Assembly: GCA_035532555.1 (NCBI GenBank)
Contig: DATKQS010000020.1
Span: forward strand, 1 to 64,000
DNA from: Thermoplasmata archaeon
GTDB lineage: Archaea; Thermoplasmatota; Thermoplasmata; Lutacidiplasmatales; UBA184
Direction of reading: 5' to 3'
Length of the DNA stretch: 64,000 nt
The notes under the pieces were generated by a model, which ran no database searches, had not been told where the DNA came from, and worked only from the letters and a program-made list of their open reading frames with translations. This document shows, piece after piece, positions 8,449-37,145 of the stretch. Each line of letters begins with the position of its first letter. The first letter of the stretch is position 1. The position numbers were made by a program, and so were the translations under genes.

Positions 8449-9153
8449 GTGACCTGGCTGACAGCCCCAAGTCCCGGATTGCCTGTCAAGAGAGTCGCAA
8501 GGTGCAAGTATGGTTTCGGGTTGCCTGATCCTGTGGCTTACCCCGACTTCCCCCCACATGTGATTGTCGATGTCAGCAACGTAGCCTATGGTCATTCGAG
8601 CGGCCCTCCAGCCCAGTTGCGAAACGTCGAGACCGTCGTCGAGTCCCTCAGGGCTGCAAGGGTCGAGTTTGAACTGTTCGTCGACGCTTCAACCTTTCAC
8701 AAGATTGACGACCCGCGAGGACTCCGAGAGATCCTCAGAAGCCCGTCTGGAATCGACCTCATCAGGTTTGCAAGGACGCCCGCCGGGACCCAAGCCGACG
8801 AGACAATCATCAGTAGGGCAAGACTGGAACTCGAGGAGTATGGGCGACCGGTGTACATCCTTTCGGGAGACAAGCTCCGAGACCACCCCAGTGCCGAGGG
8901 TATACCCCGAATCACCTTCAGATTCGATCGAAGCGGAGGCGTAACTTTCAGTCCCCCGCTTACTAAACTGCTTTCCAGGAGAGATTACCTGAGGGTGTTT
9001 CCCAACCACATCCTGTCTGAGGGTGTGCCATGTCCCCACACCAACGTCGAGACATCGATCACGAATGCGGGCGAGATATCACCTATTTGCGTTGTATGCA
9101 GTCAAGTAGTCCCCGATTGGAAATTCCCGGCAGACGGGTCGGAGGAGGACTAG
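8449..9153 (+). CDS. NYN/PIN-like RNase domain protein with C-terminal Cys-His cluster
   Basis: The 234-residue product begins at GTG 8449; starts further in are possible. A NYN (Zc3h12a-like) fold is indicated by 'HVIVDVSNVAYG', 'FELFVDAST', 'TPAGTQADETIISRA' and 'VYILSGDKLRDH', which place several acidic metal-binding residues at strand ends as in PIN-like RNases. The C-terminus has 'CPH' and 'CVVC', a probable zinc-binding cluster that may help bind RNA. It follows the nucleotidyl cyclase gene on the same strand with a 411-bp gap, so co-transcription is uncertain. A role as RNA-cleaving effector in a defence module is inference. Confidence 0.7.
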   Translation: MTWLTAPSPGLPVKRVARCKYGFGLPDPVAYPDFPPHVIVDVSNVAYGHSSGPPAQLRNVETVVESLRAARVEFELFVDASTFHKIDDPRGLREILRSPSGIDLIRFARTPAGTQADETIISRARLELEEYGRPVYILSGDKLRDHPSAEGIPRITFRFDRSGGVTFSPPLTKLLSRRDYLRVFPNHILSEGVPCPHTNVETSITNAGEISPICVVCSQVVPDWKFPADGSEED

Positions 9154-26751: not shown

Positions 26752-26805
26752 TGTGTGACCACATTTTGCGAAAACTACATTAACTCTACAATATGTGGTC
26801 ACACA
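26752..26805 (+). promoter_or_regulatory. Operator candidate: perfect 12-bp inverted repeat before fic
   Basis: TGTGTGACCACA (26752-26763) and TGTGGTCACACA (26794-26805) are exact inverted copies with centres 42 bp apart, about four helical turns. They bracket an AT-rich promoter (ACTACATTAACTCTACAATA). The second copy ends one base before the ATG at 26807, so that ATG would give a leaderless message whose start is covered by a bound regulator. Confidence 0.6.
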
Positions 26806-26806
26806 T

Positions 26807-27700
26807 ATGACGGCGGTCGTTCGATCGGTACGGGGCGGCCGTACGTACTACTATCTCGCGCACACCTACCGATGGCATGGCAAGTTCGCGAAGACGCGAA
26901 GGTACCTAGGGGAGGCAGTACCGGCGAACGTCGACGACATCAAGTTGGAAGTCGAGCGAGAGGCGTGGAGCCAGACCTGGTTTCCAGAGTTCGACAAGAT
27001 TCGAAGGGGATATCAAGAGCGGTTGAGAAAGCTACCCTCCGAGGTAGTCGAACGCGAACGACACGACTTCATCCTTGACTTTACGTACGACACCAACCGA
27101 ATCGAGGGATCCACACTCTCTCCGGATGACACCTCCGATCTAATCGATCATGGAGCAGCGCCCGGGGCGAAGCCTCTATCGGACATTCTTGAGACCCAAG
27201 CACACGCACGCCTAGCCGAAGATTTGCTCGCGCGCCCCGCTCCATTTGGACTTTCCGAACTGCTTCGATGGCACTCGTCATTGTTCAAAGCGACGAAACC
27301 CGGAATCGCTGGCCAAATCCGTGATTACGAGGTGCGAATCCGGGGAAGTAAGCACCAGCCGCCTACTGCGCTCGAGGTTCGGCCGATGCTCAAGGAGCTC
27401 CTTCGCTGGGTCAGGCGAAGTGGGAAGGGCGTGCATCCAGTCGAGTTGGCAGCCACCTTCCACTTTCGCTTCGAGTTCATCCATCCCTTCGGCGACGGGA
27501 ACGGGCGAGTCGGACGATTGGCGATGAACGTGCTTCTCGCCGAGGCGGGATACCCTCCACTGAACATTCAGTACACGAAGCGACGTGGGTACTACCACGC
27601 GCTGGAGCGAGCGAGCTCGCTGTCGAACCCTGGCCCGTTCACGGCCTGGTTCTTCCGTCGCTATCTTACGATGAATCGTCACGTTGCCAGGGCCGATTGA
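26807..27700 (+). CDS. fic: Fic family AMP-transferase (self-inhibited type)
   Basis: The frame is open from GTG 26795, but the ATG at 26807 just past the operator is preferred (297 residues). The Fic motif is intact as 'HPFGDGNGRVGR' (H-P-F-x-x-G-N-G-R-x-x-R), with 'AATFHFRFEFI' before it. The inhibitory helix motif [S/T]-x3-E-[G/N] appears upstream as 'TNRIEGSTLS', marking a class II Fic enzyme that is self-inhibited rather than paired with a separate antitoxin. Such enzymes transfer AMP to Tyr/Ser/Thr of target proteins. The N-terminal ~60 residues look like a Fic_N domain. Confidence 0.85.
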   Translation: MTAVVRSVRGGRTYYYLAHTYRWHGKFAKTRRYLGEAVPANVDDIKLEVEREAWSQTWFPEFDKIRRGYQERLRKLPSEVVERERHDFILDFTYDTNRIEGSTLSPDDTSDLIDHGAAPGAKPLSDILETQAHARLAEDLLARPAPFGLSELLRWHSSLFKATKPGIAGQIRDYEVRIRGSKHQPPTALEVRPMLKELLRWVRRSGKGVHPVELAATFHFRFEFIHPFGDGNGRVGRLAMNVLLAEAGYPPLNIQYTKRRGYYHALERASSLSNPGPFTAWFFRRYLTMNRHVARAD

Positions 27701-27748
27701 GTCCCAATCAATGACCGCTGAGCGTAATGATGCCTGGTCCGAGAACGC

Positions 27749-28075
27749 CTAGTCGCGCGAGGGTAGTCCTAGCTTGGCCTTCCGCCAGTTCCTCCACTCC
27801 AGAATAGCCTCCTTCTGCCGCTCTTTGAGGGAGCGCAGGTAGTCCTGCAGATGCTTCCTGTCCGCTCGCGAGGCCCGAATATAGGCGATCTTCTCTGGAA
27901 TGCGGTCGATGAACCCTTTTCTGACTTGCTGTCGAAGAGATCGCAGGACCTTGGCGCGTAGATCGGCAAGAGAGTCCGCTTCCGCTAGGACCACCGCGAC
28001 GTCCATATTCCAATCTGCCCAGAGGCGAGGGCCGTGCGCTTGTCGATGGACATAGACTCGATATGTCCGGGGCAT
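27749..28075 (-). CDS. Hypothetical basic protein
   Basis: Starting at the ATG at 28075, the 108-residue product 'MPRTYRVYVHRQAHGPRLWA' continues 'VAVVLAEADSLADLRAKVLR' and ends in a long basic helical stretch rich in Arg and Lys. It has no recognised family. An overlapping frame on the same strand looks less protein-like and is not called. It lies between fic and the HEPN/MNT operon, converging with fic. Confidence 0.5.
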   Translation of the reverse strand: MPRTYRVYVHRQAHGPRLWADWNMDVAVVLAEADSLADLRAKVLRSLRQQVRKGFIDRIPEKIAYIRASRADRKHLQDYLRSLKERQKEAILEWRNWRKAKLGLPSRD

Positions 28076-28221
28076 CCTCTCGGTGAGGACCGTCGGTGAG
28101 ACTTGTTTCGCCTCTCGTCTCGGAGGCCTCCGGGAGCGGTGGGCATTCGGTCTCACGGATCGGGGATGTCAACAAAGCATATTAGGAAATCCTTACATTA
28201 GGTCCGTCGAGGCGTGACTCG

Positions 28222-28818
28222 ATGAAGGTCCATGATCCCCTGGAGGCGTTGCTCGCAAGCCCTGTGCGATGGCGGATTGCGCGAACGCTCGTTCTCTCTA
28301 GAGAGGGTGCATGGAGCGGCCGCACTCTTGCAGCTGAGGCGGGGGTCTCGTTGCCACAGGCCATTGAGGCGCTGAAGCGTTGGGAGGAAGCCGGGTTGGT
28401 TTGGCGGGAGACCAAGGGCCGAGCGCACAAGTGGAGCCTGGTCCGGACTCACGTTCTCGTGGCACCCTTGAATCGCCTCTTCGACATTGAAGCGGGTCTT
28501 CCCAAGAAGTTTCAAGAAGATCTCGCCCACGGATTGCAGGGGCTGCCCATCAGGCGCGTTGTCCTTTTTGGCTCGTTCGCCCGAGGCTCCGAAGGGAACA
28601 CGAGCGATGTGGATCTGTTGGTTGAGCTTTCGAATGGAGCATCACGCTCGAAGGTGGAGGAAGGGTTGACACGCGAAACCGTGCGAATTGTTAGAAGGTA
28701 CGGGTCAGTCATCTCGGCAATCGTGCGCTCTCCAGAAGAGGCGCGACGCTCAGCTGAGTCTCCCTTGACCAAGGAGATTGAATCCTCGGGGGTAGTGATC
28801 GTTGGGGGCCGGCCGTGA
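28222..28818 (+). CDS. MNT nucleotidyltransferase with N-terminal winged helix (antitoxin of HEPN/MNT pair)
   Basis: The 198-residue protein has two parts. Residues 1-80 form a winged helix ('VRWRIARTLVL', 'TLAAEAGVSLPQAIEALKRW'). Residues 105-190 carry the minimal nucleotidyltransferase motif 'VVLFGSFARGSEGNTSDVDL' (GSxxxG-x-DxD). In HEPN/MNT systems this enzyme AMPylates and silences the HEPN RNase. The fused winged helix suggests it also represses its own operon. The start lies about 26 nt after a weak TATA-like ACATTA. The next gene starts within its stop (GTGA). Confidence 0.8.
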   Translation: MKVHDPLEALLASPVRWRIARTLVLSREGAWSGRTLAAEAGVSLPQAIEALKRWEEAGLVWRETKGRAHKWSLVRTHVLVAPLNRLFDIEAGLPKKFQEDLAHGLQGLPIRRVVLFGSFARGSEGNTSDVDLLVELSNGASRSKVEEGLTRETVRIVRRYGSVISAIVRSPEEARRSAESPLTKEIESSGVVIVGGRP

Positions 28819-29216
28819 GTGGCCCCCGGGTCACCGACATTCCACGAGCTCGATCTGAGTCGTTCCTGAGACGCGCGCGTAGCTTCGCCAGCCTGATGGA
28901 AGCAGCCCTCGAGCGGGGGAATTCTGAGGGAGCCGCGCTCGCAGGGGTTCACTGCGTAATCTCGGCCTGCGATGCCCTGACCGTGCATTCTCTGGGCCTT
29001 CGATCGAAGGGCCAAGACCATCGCGAGGCAGTTCGCCTCCTATCCCGACTCAGCATCCCCGCCAGTCTCTTGACGCAAGTTCGGGGCGTTCTCGGTTTGA
29101 AGACCCTCATAGAATACGATGATCGAAGCCTCTCGGCACAGGAAGTGAGGACGTTGTGCGACCGTGCCCGACGCATCCTAGCTACAGTTGAGAGTCAGCT
29201 CGCCCCACGAAAATAG
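28815..29216 (+). CDS. HEPN domain toxin
   Basis: The 133-residue, all-helical protein starts at GTG overlapping the MNT stop. 'RARSFASLMEAALERG' and 'GVHCVISACDALTVHSLGL' are typical HEPN helices, and 'RSKGQDH' fits the R-x4-6-H catalytic motif of HEPN RNases (here R-x5-H). With the upstream MNT gene it forms a canonical TA pair. RNase activity is inferred from the motif. Confidence 0.75.
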   Translation: MSGPRVTDIPRARSESFLRRARSFASLMEAALERGNSEGAALAGVHCVISACDALTVHSLGLRSKGQDHREAVRLLSRLSIPASLLTQVRGVLGLKTLIEYDDRSLSAQEVRTLCDRARRILATVESQLAPRK

Positions 29217-29287
29217 GCTCAAGTCTCGGTGAGCATGGAATCAGGATCTGCAAGACTAGAAGGGTCCATGTCCGGCAGGTGGCCCGG

Positions 29288-29668
29288 TCAATCGTCTGGA
29301 ACCTGCCTAAGATGATTGGGCCCCCGAGACCGAGTTCTTCTCAACGATCGACCAATCCTTGGGACCTCGACTTGCGTGAACTCCCACACCCGCTTGAGGT
29401 TAGACTCTCTGCCGGCGCTGGTAAGTACCTGAGCGCCAACGCTTGCGATTCGCACCCAACGAATTGATCGGTTCTCTTTACGGAAGGTAGGGGTGGTCCT
29501 GCTTGCGGATTCTGCGAGATGGATCACGTCGAACAGGACGACCTTCTGTGTGCGTTTGTCTCCGAAGAACAGACTTGGACCAGCGGCGGTATCCCGTTCG
29601 ATCTCGGCGATCGCGCGGAGCATGTGCGACACGGGTAGGTGATCAGGATCGGACTCCACGGGGTTCAT
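29288..29668 (-). CDS. Degenerate HepT-like (DUF86) protein, catalytic residues lost
   Basis: The 126-residue protein aligns by eye with HepT/DUF86: 'MLRAIAEIERDTAAGPSLFF', 'KVVLFDVIHLAESASRTT', 'RSIRWVRIASVGAQVL' and 'LKRVWEFTQVEVPRI'. Where active members have R-N-x3-H-x-Y after the 'W--I' helix, this protein reads 'GAQVLTSAG', so both Arg and His are gone. It starts 3 bp after the AbiEii stop and is probably translated in the same operon. It may be a decayed toxin, or a catalytically dead partner that binds nucleotidyltransferases. Confidence 0.6.
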   Translation of the reverse strand: MNPVESDPDHLPVSHMLRAIAEIERDTAAGPSLFFGDKRTQKVVLFDVIHLAESASRTTPTFRKENRSIRWVRIASVGAQVLTSAGRESNLKRVWEFTQVEVPRIGRSLRRTRSRGPNHLRQVPDD

Positions 29669-29671
29669 GGA

Positions 29672-30367
29672 TTAGGGTAGAGAGCCCTCTACAAGGGCGA
29701 CGAACCGATTCCAGACGGCCCTGTTTGAAGGATGTGATGGACGACCGCGGCTAAGTCGAGAAATCGTATCGAGGTATGTCTTTGGAGACGCCAGTTTCTC
29801 CTTGAGGAGATTCGTCCGCTTGGTCAATCCCGAATTTGGATGCTCGGCAAGAAATGCGCGGATTTCGGCGACCCGAATTTGTCTGTCGCTCAGCGCCAGG
29901 AGGTCTGCGAGGTCCTGGTCGCGACCCGCAAGTAGCTTGAGCGCCCACAATGCCTCGATACGTGCCACCGAGACCGCTGCACTCGTGCGGCCCGTGCGGA
30001 GGGAAAGCACTTCGCGAATGGCGTCCCGGCCCACCCATTCAGGCTCAACCACTACTTGGGCTAGTCGATCCACTACGCCATCGATCATCAAATCTACAGT
30101 CACGAGGCCCAGTTGAAGGCGCTCGACTCTAGGTGGGTTGGTCCCCGCAATATTGGGAAGGCGAAGCAAGGTCGATCGCTCTGCAGCTAGAATGGGTCTG
30201 ATCTCGTTATACTGACGTGCTGTAAGAACGAGGTCTAAGTCCACCGAGAAACGGGGCGATCCATAGGCCGCCAGGGCGTACCCACCGATGAGGGTGCCCC
30301 CCCTCTCCCATGGCCAGGAATCCAAGTAGGCAATCGCCTCTCGCTCTCGTTCAACGGGGTCGATCAT
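29672..30367 (-). CDS. AbiEii-type nucleotidyltransferase toxin
   Basis: The 231-residue protein carries 'TLIGGYALAAYGSPRFSVDL' followed by D-L, i.e. the G-[ST]-x-R-x-[ST]-x-D-x-D motif of AbiEii/DUF1814 nucleotidyltransferases. 'VTVDLMIDG' supplies the third acidic strand. AbiEii toxins transfer nucleotides to RNA targets such as tRNA and arrest growth. It overlaps the AbiEi-like gene by 17 bp and is followed by the HepT-like gene. Confidence 0.75.
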   Translation of the reverse strand: MIDPVEREREAIAYLDSWPWERGGTLIGGYALAAYGSPRFSVDLDLVLTARQYNEIRPILAAERSTLLRLPNIAGTNPPRVERLQLGLVTVDLMIDGVVDRLAQVVVEPEWVGRDAIREVLSLRTGRTSAAVSVARIEALWALKLLAGRDQDLADLLALSDRQIRVAEIRAFLAEHPNSGLTKRTNLLKEKLASPKTYLDTISRLSRGRPSHPSNRAVWNRFVALVEGSLP

Positions 30368-30923
30368 CCAACCATGCTCGTGCCCCGCCGAATACGTCCG
30401 GATGGGCTCGGATGAATTCGTCTACCGCCCGACGCGGGACTACCGGCTCGTGGCCTTTGATGACACACCGAAGTTTCGAAACAGAGTGAAGCCGAACCAC
30501 TGTCCCCGTCCGTTTACGGCCGCCTAGCGAGATCCCGTGGGATCGCAGGTACCTGAGAGTCGGTCCTACATCCGTTGCTTCCACGGCAATATGCAGCTCG
30601 CTCAAGGCGAGAGAGGGAGGGGCGGAGTATCGCCCGTCAGTCCAAACCTCTACAGCGCTGGGCCCCGTCCACGCAAAGCGATAGGGAAGCGCTCGTGCGA
30701 TGCCTCGCACACGTCGGTACTCTGCTGCGCGAAGATCGGGTTTTTCGGAGGGGCCTAGACAGCGGTAGCGCCCTCGGCCCACGCGCGCGACAACTCCTCG
30801 CCGCTTCAACTCAGATAGAGTTCGCGATGCCCTCGGACTATTGATGGCACGACTAAATTCGGCTACTGAGAATTCCCGATCACCGTACAGCGCCGAGACG
30901 GTGTCCGAGTACGTTAGTGCCAT
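30351..30923 (-). CDS. AbiEi-type antitoxin/transcriptional regulator
   Basis: The 190-residue protein has an N-terminal winged helix ('FSVAEFSRAINSPRASRTLS', then 'RRGVVARVGRGRYRCL'). A C-terminal domain ('PYRFAWTGPSAVEVW', 'KLRCVIKGHEPVVPRRAVDE') is typical of AbiEi-like proteins. AbiEi represses its operon through its winged helix. The promoter is an AT-rich island at 30925-30960. Pairing and order with the AbiEii gene are canonical. Confidence 0.7.
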   Translation of the reverse strand: MALTYSDTVSALYGDREFSVAEFSRAINSPRASRTLSELKRRGVVARVGRGRYRCLGPSEKPDLRAAEYRRVRGIARALPYRFAWTGPSAVEVWTDGRYSAPPSLALSELHIAVEATDVGPTLRYLRSHGISLGGRKRTGTVVRLHSVSKLRCVIKGHEPVVPRRAVDEFIRAHPDVFGGARAWLDDRPR

Positions 30924-30924
30924 G

Positions 30925-30960
30925 TGCCAATAATATCGGTATTAGTATTTAATAATATTC
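30925..30960 (-). promoter_or_regulatory. AT-rich promoter with repeated ATATTATT before AbiEi
   Basis: On the minus strand two ATATTATT copies flank AAATACTAATACCG directly upstream of the ATG at 30923. The AT-richness stands out from the surroundings and probably includes the TATA box and a repressor site. Confidence 0.5.
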
Positions 30961-31126
30961 ACAAAATCATGTCAGAGGGCGGGGAGGGCTTCCCCTGGAC
31001 GGAGTGGGTTTCTATCGAAGTGATGGGTGGGATCGAGACAACGTTCAAGGCCCGGTGAACCGAAATCGATCGATCGGGTTCGAGGGCCATCTAAGACGCC
31101 TGCGGAGGTTCACGACCACCCGTGAG

Positions 31127-31513
31127 CTAGTAGGTCTCGACCGCGATTCCCGGGATCCTGGAGAAGTCCGAGTCCTTGGTCAGGATCGTGGCGCGGTGAT
31201 GCTTGGCCACCGCCGCCACGATGAGATCCAGGTTGCCCACCGAACTTCCACGACGAGCGCACTCGCCGCCCAATCGGGCGGCGTCCACGACAAGCGGCTC
31301 GGTAACATCTAGAACCTCGAGCTGGGAAACGAATTCGAGTGCGCGCGCGAGTCGTTTTCCCCCTTGTGCAAAGGCACCCACCAGGAACTCCGTGAGGCCC
31401 GGGGCGGCTATGGCCAGCCGCTCCTTACGCTTGTCCAATTCGCGGGCCTTGTCGATCGCCCCGGGGACGCCGTTGGCGAGATCGATGCAGAAGGTAGAGT
31501 CGAGGCAGTACAT
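31127..31513 (-). CDS. vapC: PIN-domain toxin (VapC)
   Basis: The 128-residue protein has the PIN signature: 'MYCLDSTFCIDLANG' (first Asp), 'LAIAAPGLTEFLVGA' (Glu), 'VGNLDLIVAAVAKHH' (Asp) and 'ATILTKDSDFSRI' (Asp). VapC toxins are Mg-dependent RNases acting on tRNA or rRNA. The gene starts 3 bp after the VapB stop. Confidence 0.85.
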   Translation of the reverse strand: MYCLDSTFCIDLANGVPGAIDKARELDKRKERLAIAAPGLTEFLVGAFAQGGKRLARALEFVSQLEVLDVTEPLVVDAARLGGECARRGSSVGNLDLIVAAVAKHHRATILTKDSDFSRIPGIAVETY

Positions 31514-33670: not shown

Positions 33671-34822
33671 TCAGCCACCGTCGGCGAAGGCGGCCGAGGT
33701 CCACACGCATGCGGGATCCGAGGCGAGGGCGTCACCTGTGGTGGCGTATGCCCGAGCCCGGCTTCCTCCGCAAGCCTGCCGTAAGGAGCAGGCGCCGCAC
33801 GCGCCCGTGAACGCCCTTCGCCGGATCTGTCGCAGGAGCTCGTGGGATCGGTAGATCGAGGGCAGGTCCCCGTCCTTGATGTTTCCCAGCGCGTAGGGGA
33901 GGAGCCCTCCGGGGTACACGGTCCCGTCGTTGGCTACAAAGAGGATCCCGTCCCCGTCGAGGGTGCCTACCGGCGCGAGTCCCGATGGCATGCTCGGTGC
34001 TCCTTCCAACGCGATGAGGTCCGAGCGGAGGGTGCGGTACAGCGGGTCGTCCCAATACTCACCCCGTTCCTCCCGCATCCGAAGGACACGTCGCAGGAAT
34101 GGGGCCTCCACGGTGCGGACCGTGATCCCATACCGGGAGGCGTCGTACAGGAAGTTCGCGACACTCTCGCACCCGGCGGGCGGCAGGTCGTGGGTATCTC
34201 CCTCCGCCCCCCGGCCGACCTTGATGAGGAAGAAGAGCTCCCACGCGCGGACATCGAGCTGCCGAAGGATATGGAAGATTTCCGGGAGCTCTCCGACGGT
34301 CTCGGCCATCACGGTGGTGTTGATCTGTACGCGGAGTCCGAGGTCCCGGGCCTCCCCGGCCGCTTGCAACGTGCGCTCGAAGGTCCCGTTCTGTCGACGG
34401 ATTGCGTCGTGGGTCTCAGGACGGGAGCCGTCCAGACTGAGGGAGAGCGCGGATGCGCCCGCGTCGGCCAGCCGCGAGAGCGTGTCGCGGGTGAGTCCCT
34501 GCGAGACCGCGGGCGACACGCCGAAGCGCAGGCCGAGGTCCCGAGCGTACGAGAGGAGATCGAACAGATCCTGCCGTCGCAGGGGATCGCCTCCGGTGAA
34601 GATCACCGTGGGGGGGTGCTCGCCAAAGGATGCTACTTGGTCGAGGAGACGGCGTCCCTCGGCGGGGGATAGTTCGCCGGGCAGGGGATCCGGGATCGCG
34701 GAGGCCCGGCAGTGGACGCAGGACAAGGGGCAGGCCCGTGTCATCTCCCAAAAGAGGAGGAGGGGTGCCTGGGAGTAATCTCGGGGGTGGTGTCCCTGCG
34801 GACCTCCGGGATGGGGGGTCAT
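33671..34822 (-). CDS. Radical SAM/SPASM protein, AhbD/NirJ-like heme-pathway enzyme
   Basis: The start at 34822 (ATG overlapping the upstream stop as ATGA) gives 383 residues. 'MTRACPLSCVHCRA' is the C-x3-C-x2-C site for the radical SAM cluster, with 'IFTGGDPLRR' for SAM binding. The C-terminal 'CGACSLRQACGGSRARAY' matches a SPASM/twitch auxiliary cluster. The 'ACPLSCVHCRA' context is shared by AhbC, AhbD and NirJ. Coupled to ferrochelatase and a PPO-type oxidase, the likely role is decarboxylation of coproheme to heme (AhbD role). That substrate is inference from context. Confidence 0.75.
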   Translation of the reverse strand: MTPHPGGPQGHHPRDYSQAPLLLFWEMTRACPLSCVHCRASAIPDPLPGELSPAEGRRLLDQVASFGEHPPTVIFTGGDPLRRQDLFDLLSYARDLGLRFGVSPAVSQGLTRDTLSRLADAGASALSLSLDGSRPETHDAIRRQNGTFERTLQAAGEARDLGLRVQINTTVMAETVGELPEIFHILRQLDVRAWELFFLIKVGRGAEGDTHDLPPAGCESVANFLYDASRYGITVRTVEAPFLRRVLRMREERGEYWDDPLYRTLRSDLIALEGAPSMPSGLAPVGTLDGDGILFVANDGTVYPGGLLPYALGNIKDGDLPSIYRSHELLRQIRRRAFTGACGACSLRQACGGSRARAYATTGDALASDPACVWTSAAFADGG

Positions 34823-36252
34823 GCGGTTGCCTCCATGGGCGCGATCGCCTCCGTGACCGCGGATAGGAAGGAGGTCACGCCTCGTGCGGCCCGGTCCGCA
34901 TCCTCGATGCAATCGGGGACGCCGATGCCGCGATACGCGCTGCCCGCCAGGAAGAGGCCCGGCACGTTGGTTCGCGCGGACTCGATGGCAGCCACTCGCT
35001 CCATGTGATCGACGTCGTACTGGGGATGGGCGTTCTGCCATCGGTGGACCCGGGCGAACTCCGGAGGTCCACGAAGGCTCAGGAGAGGCGTCAGTTCCTG
35101 AACGGCCAGGTCCGCGAGCGCGTCATCGGGTCGATCCAGTACGGAGGCTTCTCGTACCCCGCCGTAGAACGCCCGCAGCAGGACGTGCCCGGAGGGAGCC
35201 CGTCCCTCGAACTTGGAGGAGACCCATGTGCAGGCCTTGAGGTGGACACCTTCCGTGCGCGGCACGAGGAGGCCGGACCCGTCCAGTGGCCGACAGGCAT
35301 CCGCGGAAAAGGCGAGTGCGATCACCGCCGAGGAGGCGTACGGGATGGCGAGGAGTGCGTCCGCCAGCTTCGGTTCGAGCCCCGCGAGGAGCCGTGCGGA
35401 AACGGGAGCGGGAGTGGCCAGGAGGACGGCCTCCGAGCGGAGAGCGCTCCCGTCGTCGAGGGGGATCTCGAAGCCCCCCTGCCTCCCCCGCTCGACGGCG
35501 AGGGCCTGGGTGACGGGTCTCCACTCCACATCGGGGGTCTGTGCCACGAGGGCATCCACGAGCTCTGTCATCCCGTTGGGGAAGGTGGCGAACGGCCCCG
35601 GGAGGGTGGGATCTCGGGCGGGTCGTGACCGTGCCGCCGCCTGAAGACCACGGAAGACGCTGCCATGCTCCCGCTCGTAGGCGAGGAACTGAGGCAGTAG
35701 GCTCGACATGCTCAGCCGCTCCGGGTCCCCGGCGTGGATACCGGCCACGAGAGGATCGGCGATCCGCTCCAGAGCCTCTCGTCCCAATCGCCGACGGACG
35801 AAAGAAGCGAGGCTCTCATCTCCGCGCTCCCTTCGTGCCGGAACGAGCGGCTCGACCGCGAGGCGGACCTTCCCTCGCATGGAGAGGAGGGAACTTCGCA
35901 CCATGGGGCCGAGCCGGGGCGTGGTCAGCAGTGCGAGTCCCTCCGGGAGGGGCACGAGACGGCCGCGACGCGCCACGTAGACCCGGCGGTGAGCGGGGCC
36001 CTGGAGTCGCCCCCGCAGGCCCAGCGTGCCGGAGAGCTCGACCGCCGCCGTCTTCAGGGTGAAGAAGGAGTCGACACCGCTCTCGATGAGATAGCCCTCG
36101 TGCCGCTCCGTCCCGATGGACCCACCGAGGCGGCTCCTCCGCTCCACGAGGGTGATCGCGAGGTCGTCCGAAGAGGGAACCGTCCGTCGCAACCGGTAGG
36201 CGGCCGCAAGGCCGGTCACGCCGCCACCGAGGATCACGACGTGCCGCGTCAC
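34819..36252 (-). CDS. Protoporphyrinogen/coproporphyrinogen oxidase (HemG/CgoX type)
   Basis: GTG at 36252 overlaps the ferrochelatase stop (GTGA); the frame is open further upstream but that part is antisense-like. The 477-residue FAD protein begins 'VTRHVVILGGGVTGLAAAY' (dinucleotide fold), then 'LVERRSRLGGSIGTE'. Later come 'ESGVDSFFTLKTAAVEL' and 'LRAFYGGVREASVL', and near the end 'GLFLAGSAYRGIGVPDCI'. These are hallmarks of the oxygen-dependent HemY/PPO family. The enzyme removes six electrons from a porphyrinogen; use of copro- or protoporphyrinogen cannot be read from motifs alone. Confidence 0.85.
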   Translation of the reverse strand: MTRHVVILGGGVTGLAAAYRLRRTVPSSDDLAITLVERRSRLGGSIGTERHEGYLIESGVDSFFTLKTAAVELSGTLGLRGRLQGPAHRRVYVARRGRLVPLPEGLALLTTPRLGPMVRSSLLSMRGKVRLAVEPLVPARRERGDESLASFVRRRLGREALERIADPLVAGIHAGDPERLSMSSLLPQFLAYEREHGSVFRGLQAAARSRPARDPTLPGPFATFPNGMTELVDALVAQTPDVEWRPVTQALAVERGRQGGFEIPLDDGSALRSEAVLLATPAPVSARLLAGLEPKLADALLAIPYASSAVIALAFSADACRPLDGSGLLVPRTEGVHLKACTWVSSKFEGRAPSGHVLLRAFYGGVREASVLDRPDDALADLAVQELTPLLSLRGPPEFARVHRWQNAHPQYDVDHMERVAAIESARTNVPGLFLAGSAYRGIGVPDCIEDADRAARGVTSFLSAVTEAIAPMEATA

Positions 36253-37145
36253 GAGGTCAGCCTTGGGCGCACGGCCGCGGCCATGGCCTCGATGAACTTC
36301 GGGTCGGCGTTCAGCGACGGCGTACGCTCCAGCCGCACCCCGAGGCGCTCCGCCCGCTCCTTCGCCTCTACGTCGATGTCGTACAGGATCTCGAGGTGGT
36401 CCGAGACGAAGCCGAACGGCACGATGAGGATCGCCTTCTCGCCCTCCCTTCCGAGGTCCTCGATGACCTCCTCGAAAGGTGGGCCGAGCCAGGGATCGGC
36501 GGTGCGGCCGGCGCTCTGGTAGGCCAAACGGGAGCGGATCGGCGGGAGTCGGGCCCGGATGGCTTCCATGGTCTCGAGGAGTTCCTTCTCGTAGGGATCC
36601 CCCTCCGCGAGGATCTTCCGGGGGAGGCTGTGCGCCGTGAACAGGACGTACGGATCGGGGAAGCCGTCCTGTGCGAGCGACGCGAGGCTCGCGGCGGCCC
36701 TCTCGGCGAACACGTCGGCGAGGGCGGGGACGTCGTTCCACGAGTCGACGTAGGCCACATCGAGGGAGAGCCCTTGCGTACGGACGGCCTCCTTCACCGC
36801 GTCGAAGTAGGCCCCCACGCTCATCCGTGCGTAGTAGGGCGTGAGACAGAGGGCAACGACCTTGCGAAGACCGTCCCGAGCGATCGCCGCGACGGTCTCA
36901 CGGATGTACGGGTGCCAATGGCGCATTCCCACGTAGGCCCGGACGTGGTAGCCCTCCGAGGCCAGTTTCGCTTCGAGCCCTGTCGCCTGACGCGTCGTGA
37001 TCTCTCGGAGAGGAGACTTGCCTCCGATCCGGCGGTACCGTTCACGGAACTCCGCCACCAGCTCGGGAGGCGTAGGCCGGCCGTGGCGGACCTCGCTCAG
37101 ATACGCTCCGACATCTTCGAGGGAATCCGGCCCACCGACGGCCAT
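36249..37145 (-). CDS. hemH: Ferrochelatase
   Basis: The 298-residue frame begins at 'MAVGGPDSLEDVGAYLSEV'. Family motifs are 'YVGMRHWHPYI', 'VLFTAHSLPRKI' with the catalytic His and 'IVPFGFVSDHLEILYDID' with the conserved Glu. The protein inserts Fe(II) into proto- or coproporphyrin. The annotated ATG cuts the first strand short; in-frame upstream codons read 'SAILAM', which fits the family's usual start, so a non-ATG start (ATT or CTG) may be used. No ATG, GTG or TTG precedes it before a stop. GGAGGAGGG lies upstream. It heads the heme operon. Confidence 0.85.
   Translation of the reverse strand: MAVGGPDSLEDVGAYLSEVRHGRPTPPELVAEFRERYRRIGGKSPLREITTRQATGLEAKLASEGYHVRAYVGMRHWHPYIRETVAAIARDGLRKVVALCLTPYYARMSVGAYFDAVKEAVRTQGLSLDVAYVDSWNDVPALADVFAERAAASLASLAQDGFPDPYVLFTAHSLPRKILAEGDPYEKELLETMEAIRARLPPIRSRLAYQSAGRTADPWLGPPFEEVIEDLGREGEKAILIVPFGFVSDHLEILYDIDVEAKERAERLGVRLERTPSLNADPKFIEAMAAAVRPRLTS

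Follow-up and report, generated by a model that had tools for sequence, protein, structure and literature searches.

The window analyzed here comprises 64,000 nucleotides (positions 1 to 64,000 of contig DATKQS010000020.1) of the Thermoplasmata archaeon assembly GCA_035532555.1, whose genome (G000) is 1.6 Mb in size and 96% complete. Three consecutive genes were examined, encoding a ferrochelatase (hemH), a HemY-type porphyrinogen oxidase of the PPO/CgoX type that uses flavin adenine dinucleotide (FAD), and a radical S-adenosylmethionine (SAM)/SPASM protein of family TIGR04053 (Table 1). The hemH/oxidase junction reads ...CTCGTGACG..., a GTGA overlap in which the GTG start shares bases with the TGA stop, and the oxidase/radical SAM junction reads ...CGCATGACC..., an ATGA overlap. 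The original prediction that the three genes are joined by these overlaps was confirmed by the junction sequences and the profile scores. The hemH product scored above the cut-offs of its profiles and carries conserved His and Glu motifs, TAHS at residue 170 and LEILYDID at residue 251, which we take to be catalytic. The oxidase passed the TIGR00562 cut-off and has a GxGxxG FAD motif near its N terminus. Read from its ATG, the hemH product is approximately 5 to 10 residues shorter at the N terminus than the family, and the frame upstream of this ATG is broken by a stop where that of the genus mate G080 is open, with an in-frame GTG; the start codon of the window hemH is therefore unsure, unless a sequencing error is responsible.

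The same trio is present in G080, with amino acid identities of 93, 91 and 95% for hemH, PPO and the radical SAM gene, respectively. The ratios of nonsynonymous to synonymous substitution rates between the two genomes were 0.23, 0.28 and 0.11 in the same order, from which it was deduced that selection maintains all three genes, with the strongest constraint on the radical SAM gene. Since G080 keeps the trio, and hemH, PPO and hemE are found near TIGR04053 in other phyla, the arrangement was deemed not to be due to chance.

The radical SAM protein is a full member of TIGR04053, a family to which NCBIfam assigns no function. It was rejected as a canonical AhbD because it gave 258.3 bits with TIGR04545 against an equivalog cut-off of 500, and several proteins in the AhbD position of Ahb operons likewise fell below that cut-off (300 to 400 bits). 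A tree was built by a short search from 130 of the 161 available proteins (160 from loci plus the window protein), with support from the Shimodaira-Hasegawa-like approximate likelihood ratio test (SH-aLRT) only and no bootstrap; four duplicate records and L117 were omitted, and the named loci without heme context were thinned to 18. The TIGR04053 clade (98 rows, SH-aLRT of 100) was placed on the AhbD side of this tree, with AhbC and NirJ on the other side at 99. The earlier label "AhbD-like" is thus borne out by the side of the tree, the protein grouping with AhbD and not outside the heme clades, and does not extend to canonical AhbD. The protein carries a CX3CX2C radical SAM motif and a CX2CX5CX20C auxiliary cluster motif, the reference for the latter (CX2CX5CX20-21C) being that stated for NirJ in PMC10548856; these motifs agree with those of heme radical SAM enzymes. 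The cysteines of both motifs were invariant across 40 aligned members.

We also considered that the protein might be NirJ- or AhbC-like, acting on side chains of heme d1 or siroheme, or might be a peptide maturase merely adjoining heme genes. The AlphaFold2 model (mean predicted local distance difference test score [pLDDT] of 91.2) found its best PDB fold matches in radical SAM/SPASM peptide maturases (SuiB, Z of 26.2 and root mean square deviation of 3.6 over 316 residues), and a Thermus member of the family adjoins nitrite reductase. However, the SPASM fold is common to these proteins and the model is therefore uninformative on the substrate. No solved structure of a close relative was found in the PDB, where the best sequence matches were SkfB, BlsE and PqqE. 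An AhbC or NirJ identity was rejected on the separate placement of these proteins in the tree. Furthermore, AhbA/B was not found in G000, and members of the family in both bacteria and archaea repeatedly adjoin PPO, hemH or hemE. This was judged the least probable of the readings weighed here.

Contig 17 of G000 carries heme genes in the order hemC-hemD-hemB-chdC-hemL-hemE, where hemC, hemD and hemB were named from their reading frames without a family search. HemE is on a contig other than that of the window, and the coproporphyrin-dependent set of HemE, ferrochelatase, porphyrinogen oxidase and ChdC is present in full. Neither AhbA/B (PF17805) nor AhbC was found in this 96% complete genome, and a siroheme route was rejected for lack of AhbA/B; the complete siroheme pathway that the original prediction had allowed for, with the window enzyme as its AhbC, was accordingly not seen. 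Searches of the genome turned up no HemN_C (PF06969) and no further close radical SAM relative, and HemF was not searched for. The predicted hybrid route stands in so far as, by tree and gene families, a coproporphyrin-type branch is joined to an AhbD-type enzyme. The claim that this enzyme acts in place of ChdC fails, as ChdC is encoded within the contig 17 operon.

Given the absence of a HemN_C match and the presence of HemE and ChdC, the window hemH was taken as a probable coproporphyrin III ferrochelatase, the CpfC role being preferred over PpfC. The HemY-type enzyme was taken as a putative coproporphyrinogen III oxidase. Members of the PPO and HemH families act in either route, however, and the failure to find HemN_C would call for a substitute, so that the radical SAM enzyme could instead be HemN-like and act on coproporphyrinogen III, with PPO and HemH then acting on protoporphyrin. 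This protoporphyrin route was considered very unlikely because the nearest relatives of TIGR04053 are AhbD-type, because TIGR04053 is also found with AhbC and AhbA/B, where coproheme and not coproporphyrinogen is the substrate, and because ChdC is present in 36 of the 39 genomes that hold HemH and TIGR04053.

In the chdC operon, hemE is immediately followed by a hemH relic of 25 to 29 residues that are 41 to 72% identical to the hemH copies in the chdC operons of related genomes; the relic is cut by a stop, beyond which the next gene runs in the other direction. Because this copy is reduced to a relic, the window hemH is the only intact hemH found in G000. Both this loss and the failure to find chdC in the sister genus g2 would suit a full replacement of ChdC by the window module, with chdC silent or otherwise employed. 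Against this, chdC is intact amid intact hem genes (scores in Table 1, that for NF042928 being under its cut-off) and ChdC is kept in the same 36 of 39 genomes, which makes full replacement very unlikely. The hemH tree resolved two separate lineages, one of copies from chdC operons and one of copies linked to the radical SAM gene, with the window hemH in the latter; G142 and G152 each hold one hemH of each lineage. The closest relatives of the window hemH (73%) and PPO (62%) were those of G179, which belongs to another family, while for the radical SAM protein genus mates (55%) were nearer than G179 (42%). As these closest relatives differ, the window cassette looks to have been assembled from two sources.

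The distribution of the genes was followed by a profile survey of 180 Thermoplasmata genomes. Presence of TIGR04053 was scored at 320 bits or more, or by the combined score for split matches. G096 was counted on 390 bits over the whole protein and its placement inside the clade, and G133 (294.9 bits), whose best matches were all TIGR04053-clade rows, was added to the other 46. PF00762 matched in 60 genomes, 13 of which had no match above 41 bits and were dropped as other chelatases, leaving 47; PF06778 matched in 51, of which G177 (36.9 bits) was dropped. TIGR04053 was present in 47 genomes, 46 of them with a source of coproheme (HemH in 39, AhbA/B in 7); neither source was found in G064, which is 69% complete. 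This co-occurrence fits coproheme decarboxylation. The 115 genomes with neither HemH nor AhbA/B were also without ChdC and TIGR04053, and HemH and AhbA/B were never found together (0 of 180). Among the HemH genomes, 36 had both ChdC and TIGR04053, 8 had only ChdC and 3 only TIGR04053. The 17 genomes with AhbA/B comprised 3 with TIGR04053 only, 2 with ChdC only, 4 with both and 8 with another AhbD-type protein.

The three HemH genomes with TIGR04053 and no ChdC (G021, G041 and G121; 98, 98 and 93% complete) all belong to genus g2. Neither ChdC, AhbA/B nor HemN was found in them, leaving TIGR04053 as the sole known last step found. In each of them it shares a contig with hemH and PPO, and in G021 and G041 it follows hemE, the gene order in G041 being hemE-TIGR04053-hemH-PPO. 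On gene content, the strict hybrid without ChdC that had been predicted for the window does fit these genomes. In siroheme-route archaea, TIGR04053 lies beside AhbC, with AhbA/B in the same cluster (G132 and G096), on the same contig (G079) or elsewhere in the genome (G020, G040 and G072). On two further contigs (G101:C11, L183, and G161:C25, L184), AhbA/B and ChdC lie approximately 2 kb apart, and TIGR04053 and HemH were not found in these genomes, which represent the reverse hybrid, with the siroheme branch in and ChdC out.

Outside the class, hemH, PPO, hemE or chdC was found in the stretch around TIGR04053 at 26 of 80 named loci, and PPO, hemH or hemE lay within 300 bases of it on the same strand at 14; one of these is Cryobacterium, where PPO, TIGR04053 and hemH stand in a row. 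ChdC was present in 28 of the 42 named-locus genomes searched. On plasmids of Haloferax larsenii, Halobellus and Halobaculum, TIGR04053 is found among denitrification-type genes, its neighbors including nirK in Halobellus, a cbb3-type/NorB-like oxidase subunit in all three and halocyanin in two. The ahbD gene of Haloferax volcanii has like neighbors, and its deletion is described as causing a growth defect only under anaerobic conditions that was rescued by heme (PMC5746218). This suggests, by analogy of context, that the genetically tested H. volcanii AhbD may be a TIGR04053 member.

Taken together, the three window genes are likely to form a self-contained terminal module of a coproporphyrin-dependent route, with the TIGR04053 protein as a proposed AhbD-like coproheme decarboxylase (heme synthase) beside ChdC. 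The gene identities, overlaps, distribution across genomes and tree position come from the sequences, and the substrates, the order of steps and a use at low oxygen are inferred. HemE would supply coproporphyrinogen III, which the HemY-type enzyme would oxidize to coproporphyrin III, and with iron inserted by HemH this would become coproheme. From it, the TIGR04053 enzyme would remove two propionate carboxyls by SAM radical chemistry, as AhbD does, to yield heme b. By virtue of this chemistry its step would need no peroxide, while ChdC from the other hem operon can use peroxide to carry out the equivalent reaction. Two last steps would accordingly be available to the cell, with the coproporphyrin branch rather than siroheme as the origin of the coproheme.

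Several points weigh against this assignment. HemY-type enzymes normally use O2, which is an odd fit with an anaerobic role. In contrast, Staphylococcus aureus CgoX is reported to be needed also when heme is made under anaerobic conditions (PMC6620371). The genomes surveyed are related, so that Fisher p values for the profile overstate their independence, and gene order in relatives is what links H. volcanii HVO_2144 to TIGR04053. On the Campylobacter jejuni plasmid pFORC_084_3 (L202, a 2.9-kb record), TIGR04053 adjoins a molybdenum cofactor guanylyltransferase, outside any heme context, and this species is described with a protoporphyrin route in PMC10320005; the Thermus copies adjoin nitrite reductase. 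From the C. jejuni and Thermus contexts, the family may not share one substrate.

Compared with AhbD (TIGR04545), the window enzyme shares the radical SAM and SPASM-type auxiliary motifs, a sister position in the tree and the place of AhbD in some Ahb operons. It differs in its lower TIGR04545 score, in the lack of AhbA/B/C in the genome and in its linkage to hemH and PPO. Relative to the coproporphyrin-dependent pathway (HemE, CgoX, CpfC and ChdC), all of whose gene kinds it encodes, G000 adds a radical SAM last step in an operon with ferrochelatase and oxidase. H. volcanii likewise possesses a pair of alternative last steps, PitA (ChdC) and AhbD, but coproheme there comes from the siroheme (Ahb) branch, whereas in G000 it would come from HemE, PPO and HemH. 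That ahbD occurs with hemY, hemH and hemQ, and that AhbD can close the coproporphyrin route in some organisms, is stated in PMC10548856 and PMC7242693, the former citing Dailey et al. (2015). With the general form of this route already published, the window operon is not of a new kind. The present data offer a function for TIGR04053, a widespread family known by number only, and would place coproheme at a junction that can be entered from siroheme or coproporphyrin and left through ChdC or an AhbD-type enzyme, all combinations occurring in one archaeal class.

What is new is an alternation in the oxidase slot. In five genus mates (G147, G137, G142, G009 and G152), the place of the window PPO between TIGR04053 and hemH is taken by a CopD-like (PF05425) protein of 162 to 189 residues (Table 1). 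Among the 32 of the 39 HemH and TIGR04053 genomes that were searched for both, PPO was present in 13 and the CopD-like protein (at least 96 bits) in 19, with no genome having both or neither. At least six changes between the two were needed on the TIGR04053 tree, and in five independent pairs they were always opposite (sign test, p of 0.0625). At the 80 named loci, PPO adjoins TIGR04053 on the same strand in 12 and the CopD-like protein (at least 90 bits) in 10, one of which (L148) is G050 again; in L105 the CopD-like gene adjoins on the opposite strand. The simplest reading is that the CopD-like protein replaces PPO. A rival reading, in which it is an electron-transfer partner of TIGR04053, is at odds with the occupation of the same place by PPO.

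Invariant residues of the CopD-like protein (30 members) include His14, Arg46, Thr47 and Tyr110 (L048 numbering), the last three of which are mostly changed in weakly scoring CopD paralogues. The protein was rejected as a plain HemJ, there being no NCBIfam or Pfam HemJ match; searches for HemJ likeness gave no match in plasmids or the PDB by sequence, nor a fold match at an E value of 0.001 or less (model pLDDT of 88). The link to HemJ is thin, the PF03653 search having given one weak match (22.4 bits) in a different CopD paralogue of G041. The eight HemH genomes without TIGR04053 (G065, G073, G115, G165, G032, G169, G060 and G104) have HemH, HemE and ChdC, and no PPO, strong CopD-like or HemJ match was found in them; HemJ was thus rejected as their oxidase.

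Picrophilus torridus and two Thermoplasma species are described as having hemE and hemH with no recognized hemF/N or hemG/Y (PMC3004389). The CopD-like protein may fill this gap, as a candidate for the porphyrinogen oxidase whose gene has not been recognized in Thermoplasma and Picrophilus. More broadly, we put at about even the chances that TIGR04053 is a portable last-stage heme module of archaea and bacteria with an exchangeable oxidase slot, held by a HemY-type PPO or by a CopD-like protein of a superfamily reaching HemJ, and that the latter is the missing Thermoplasma and Picrophilus oxidase, perhaps with the quinone pool as its electron acceptor, which would free the whole branch from a need for oxygen. 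A literature search, with subscription journals mostly outside its coverage, returned no paper naming TIGR04053 and none joining HemJ, protoporphyrinogen oxidase and CopD.

Table 1. Positions of the genes and features discussed, with profile scores
Feature	Record	Coordinates	Strand	Profile scores
hemH, ferrochelatase	Window	36249-37145	minus	PF00762 270.7 bits; TIGR00109 234.1 bits
HemY-type FAD porphyrinogen oxidase (PPO/CgoX type)	Window	34819-36252	minus	TIGR00562 265.8 bits (cut-off 97.85); PF01593 186.8
Radical SAM/SPASM gene, TIGR04053, AhbD-type	Window	33671-34822	minus	TIGR04053 447.1 bits (cut-off 395)
Toxin-antitoxin-like gene run	Window	26798-31513		
chdC	G000:C17	29415-29984		180.9 bits; NF042928 136.6 bits (cut-off 235)
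hemH relic	L074 (G000:C17)	8909-8995		
CopD-like four-helix membrane protein between TIGR04053 and hemH	L048	9623-10111		
CopD-like four-helix membrane protein between TIGR04053 and hemH	L052	7580-8146		
CopD-like four-helix membrane protein between TIGR04053 and hemH	L053	9205-9699		
CopD-like four-helix membrane protein between TIGR04053 and hemH	L057	8130-8642		
CopD-like four-helix membrane protein between TIGR04053 and hemH	L060	4018-4506		

The window also contains a run of toxin-antitoxin-like genes, consisting of Fic, a nucleotidyltransferase, an AbiEii/AbiEi-like pair and a PIN domain protein.

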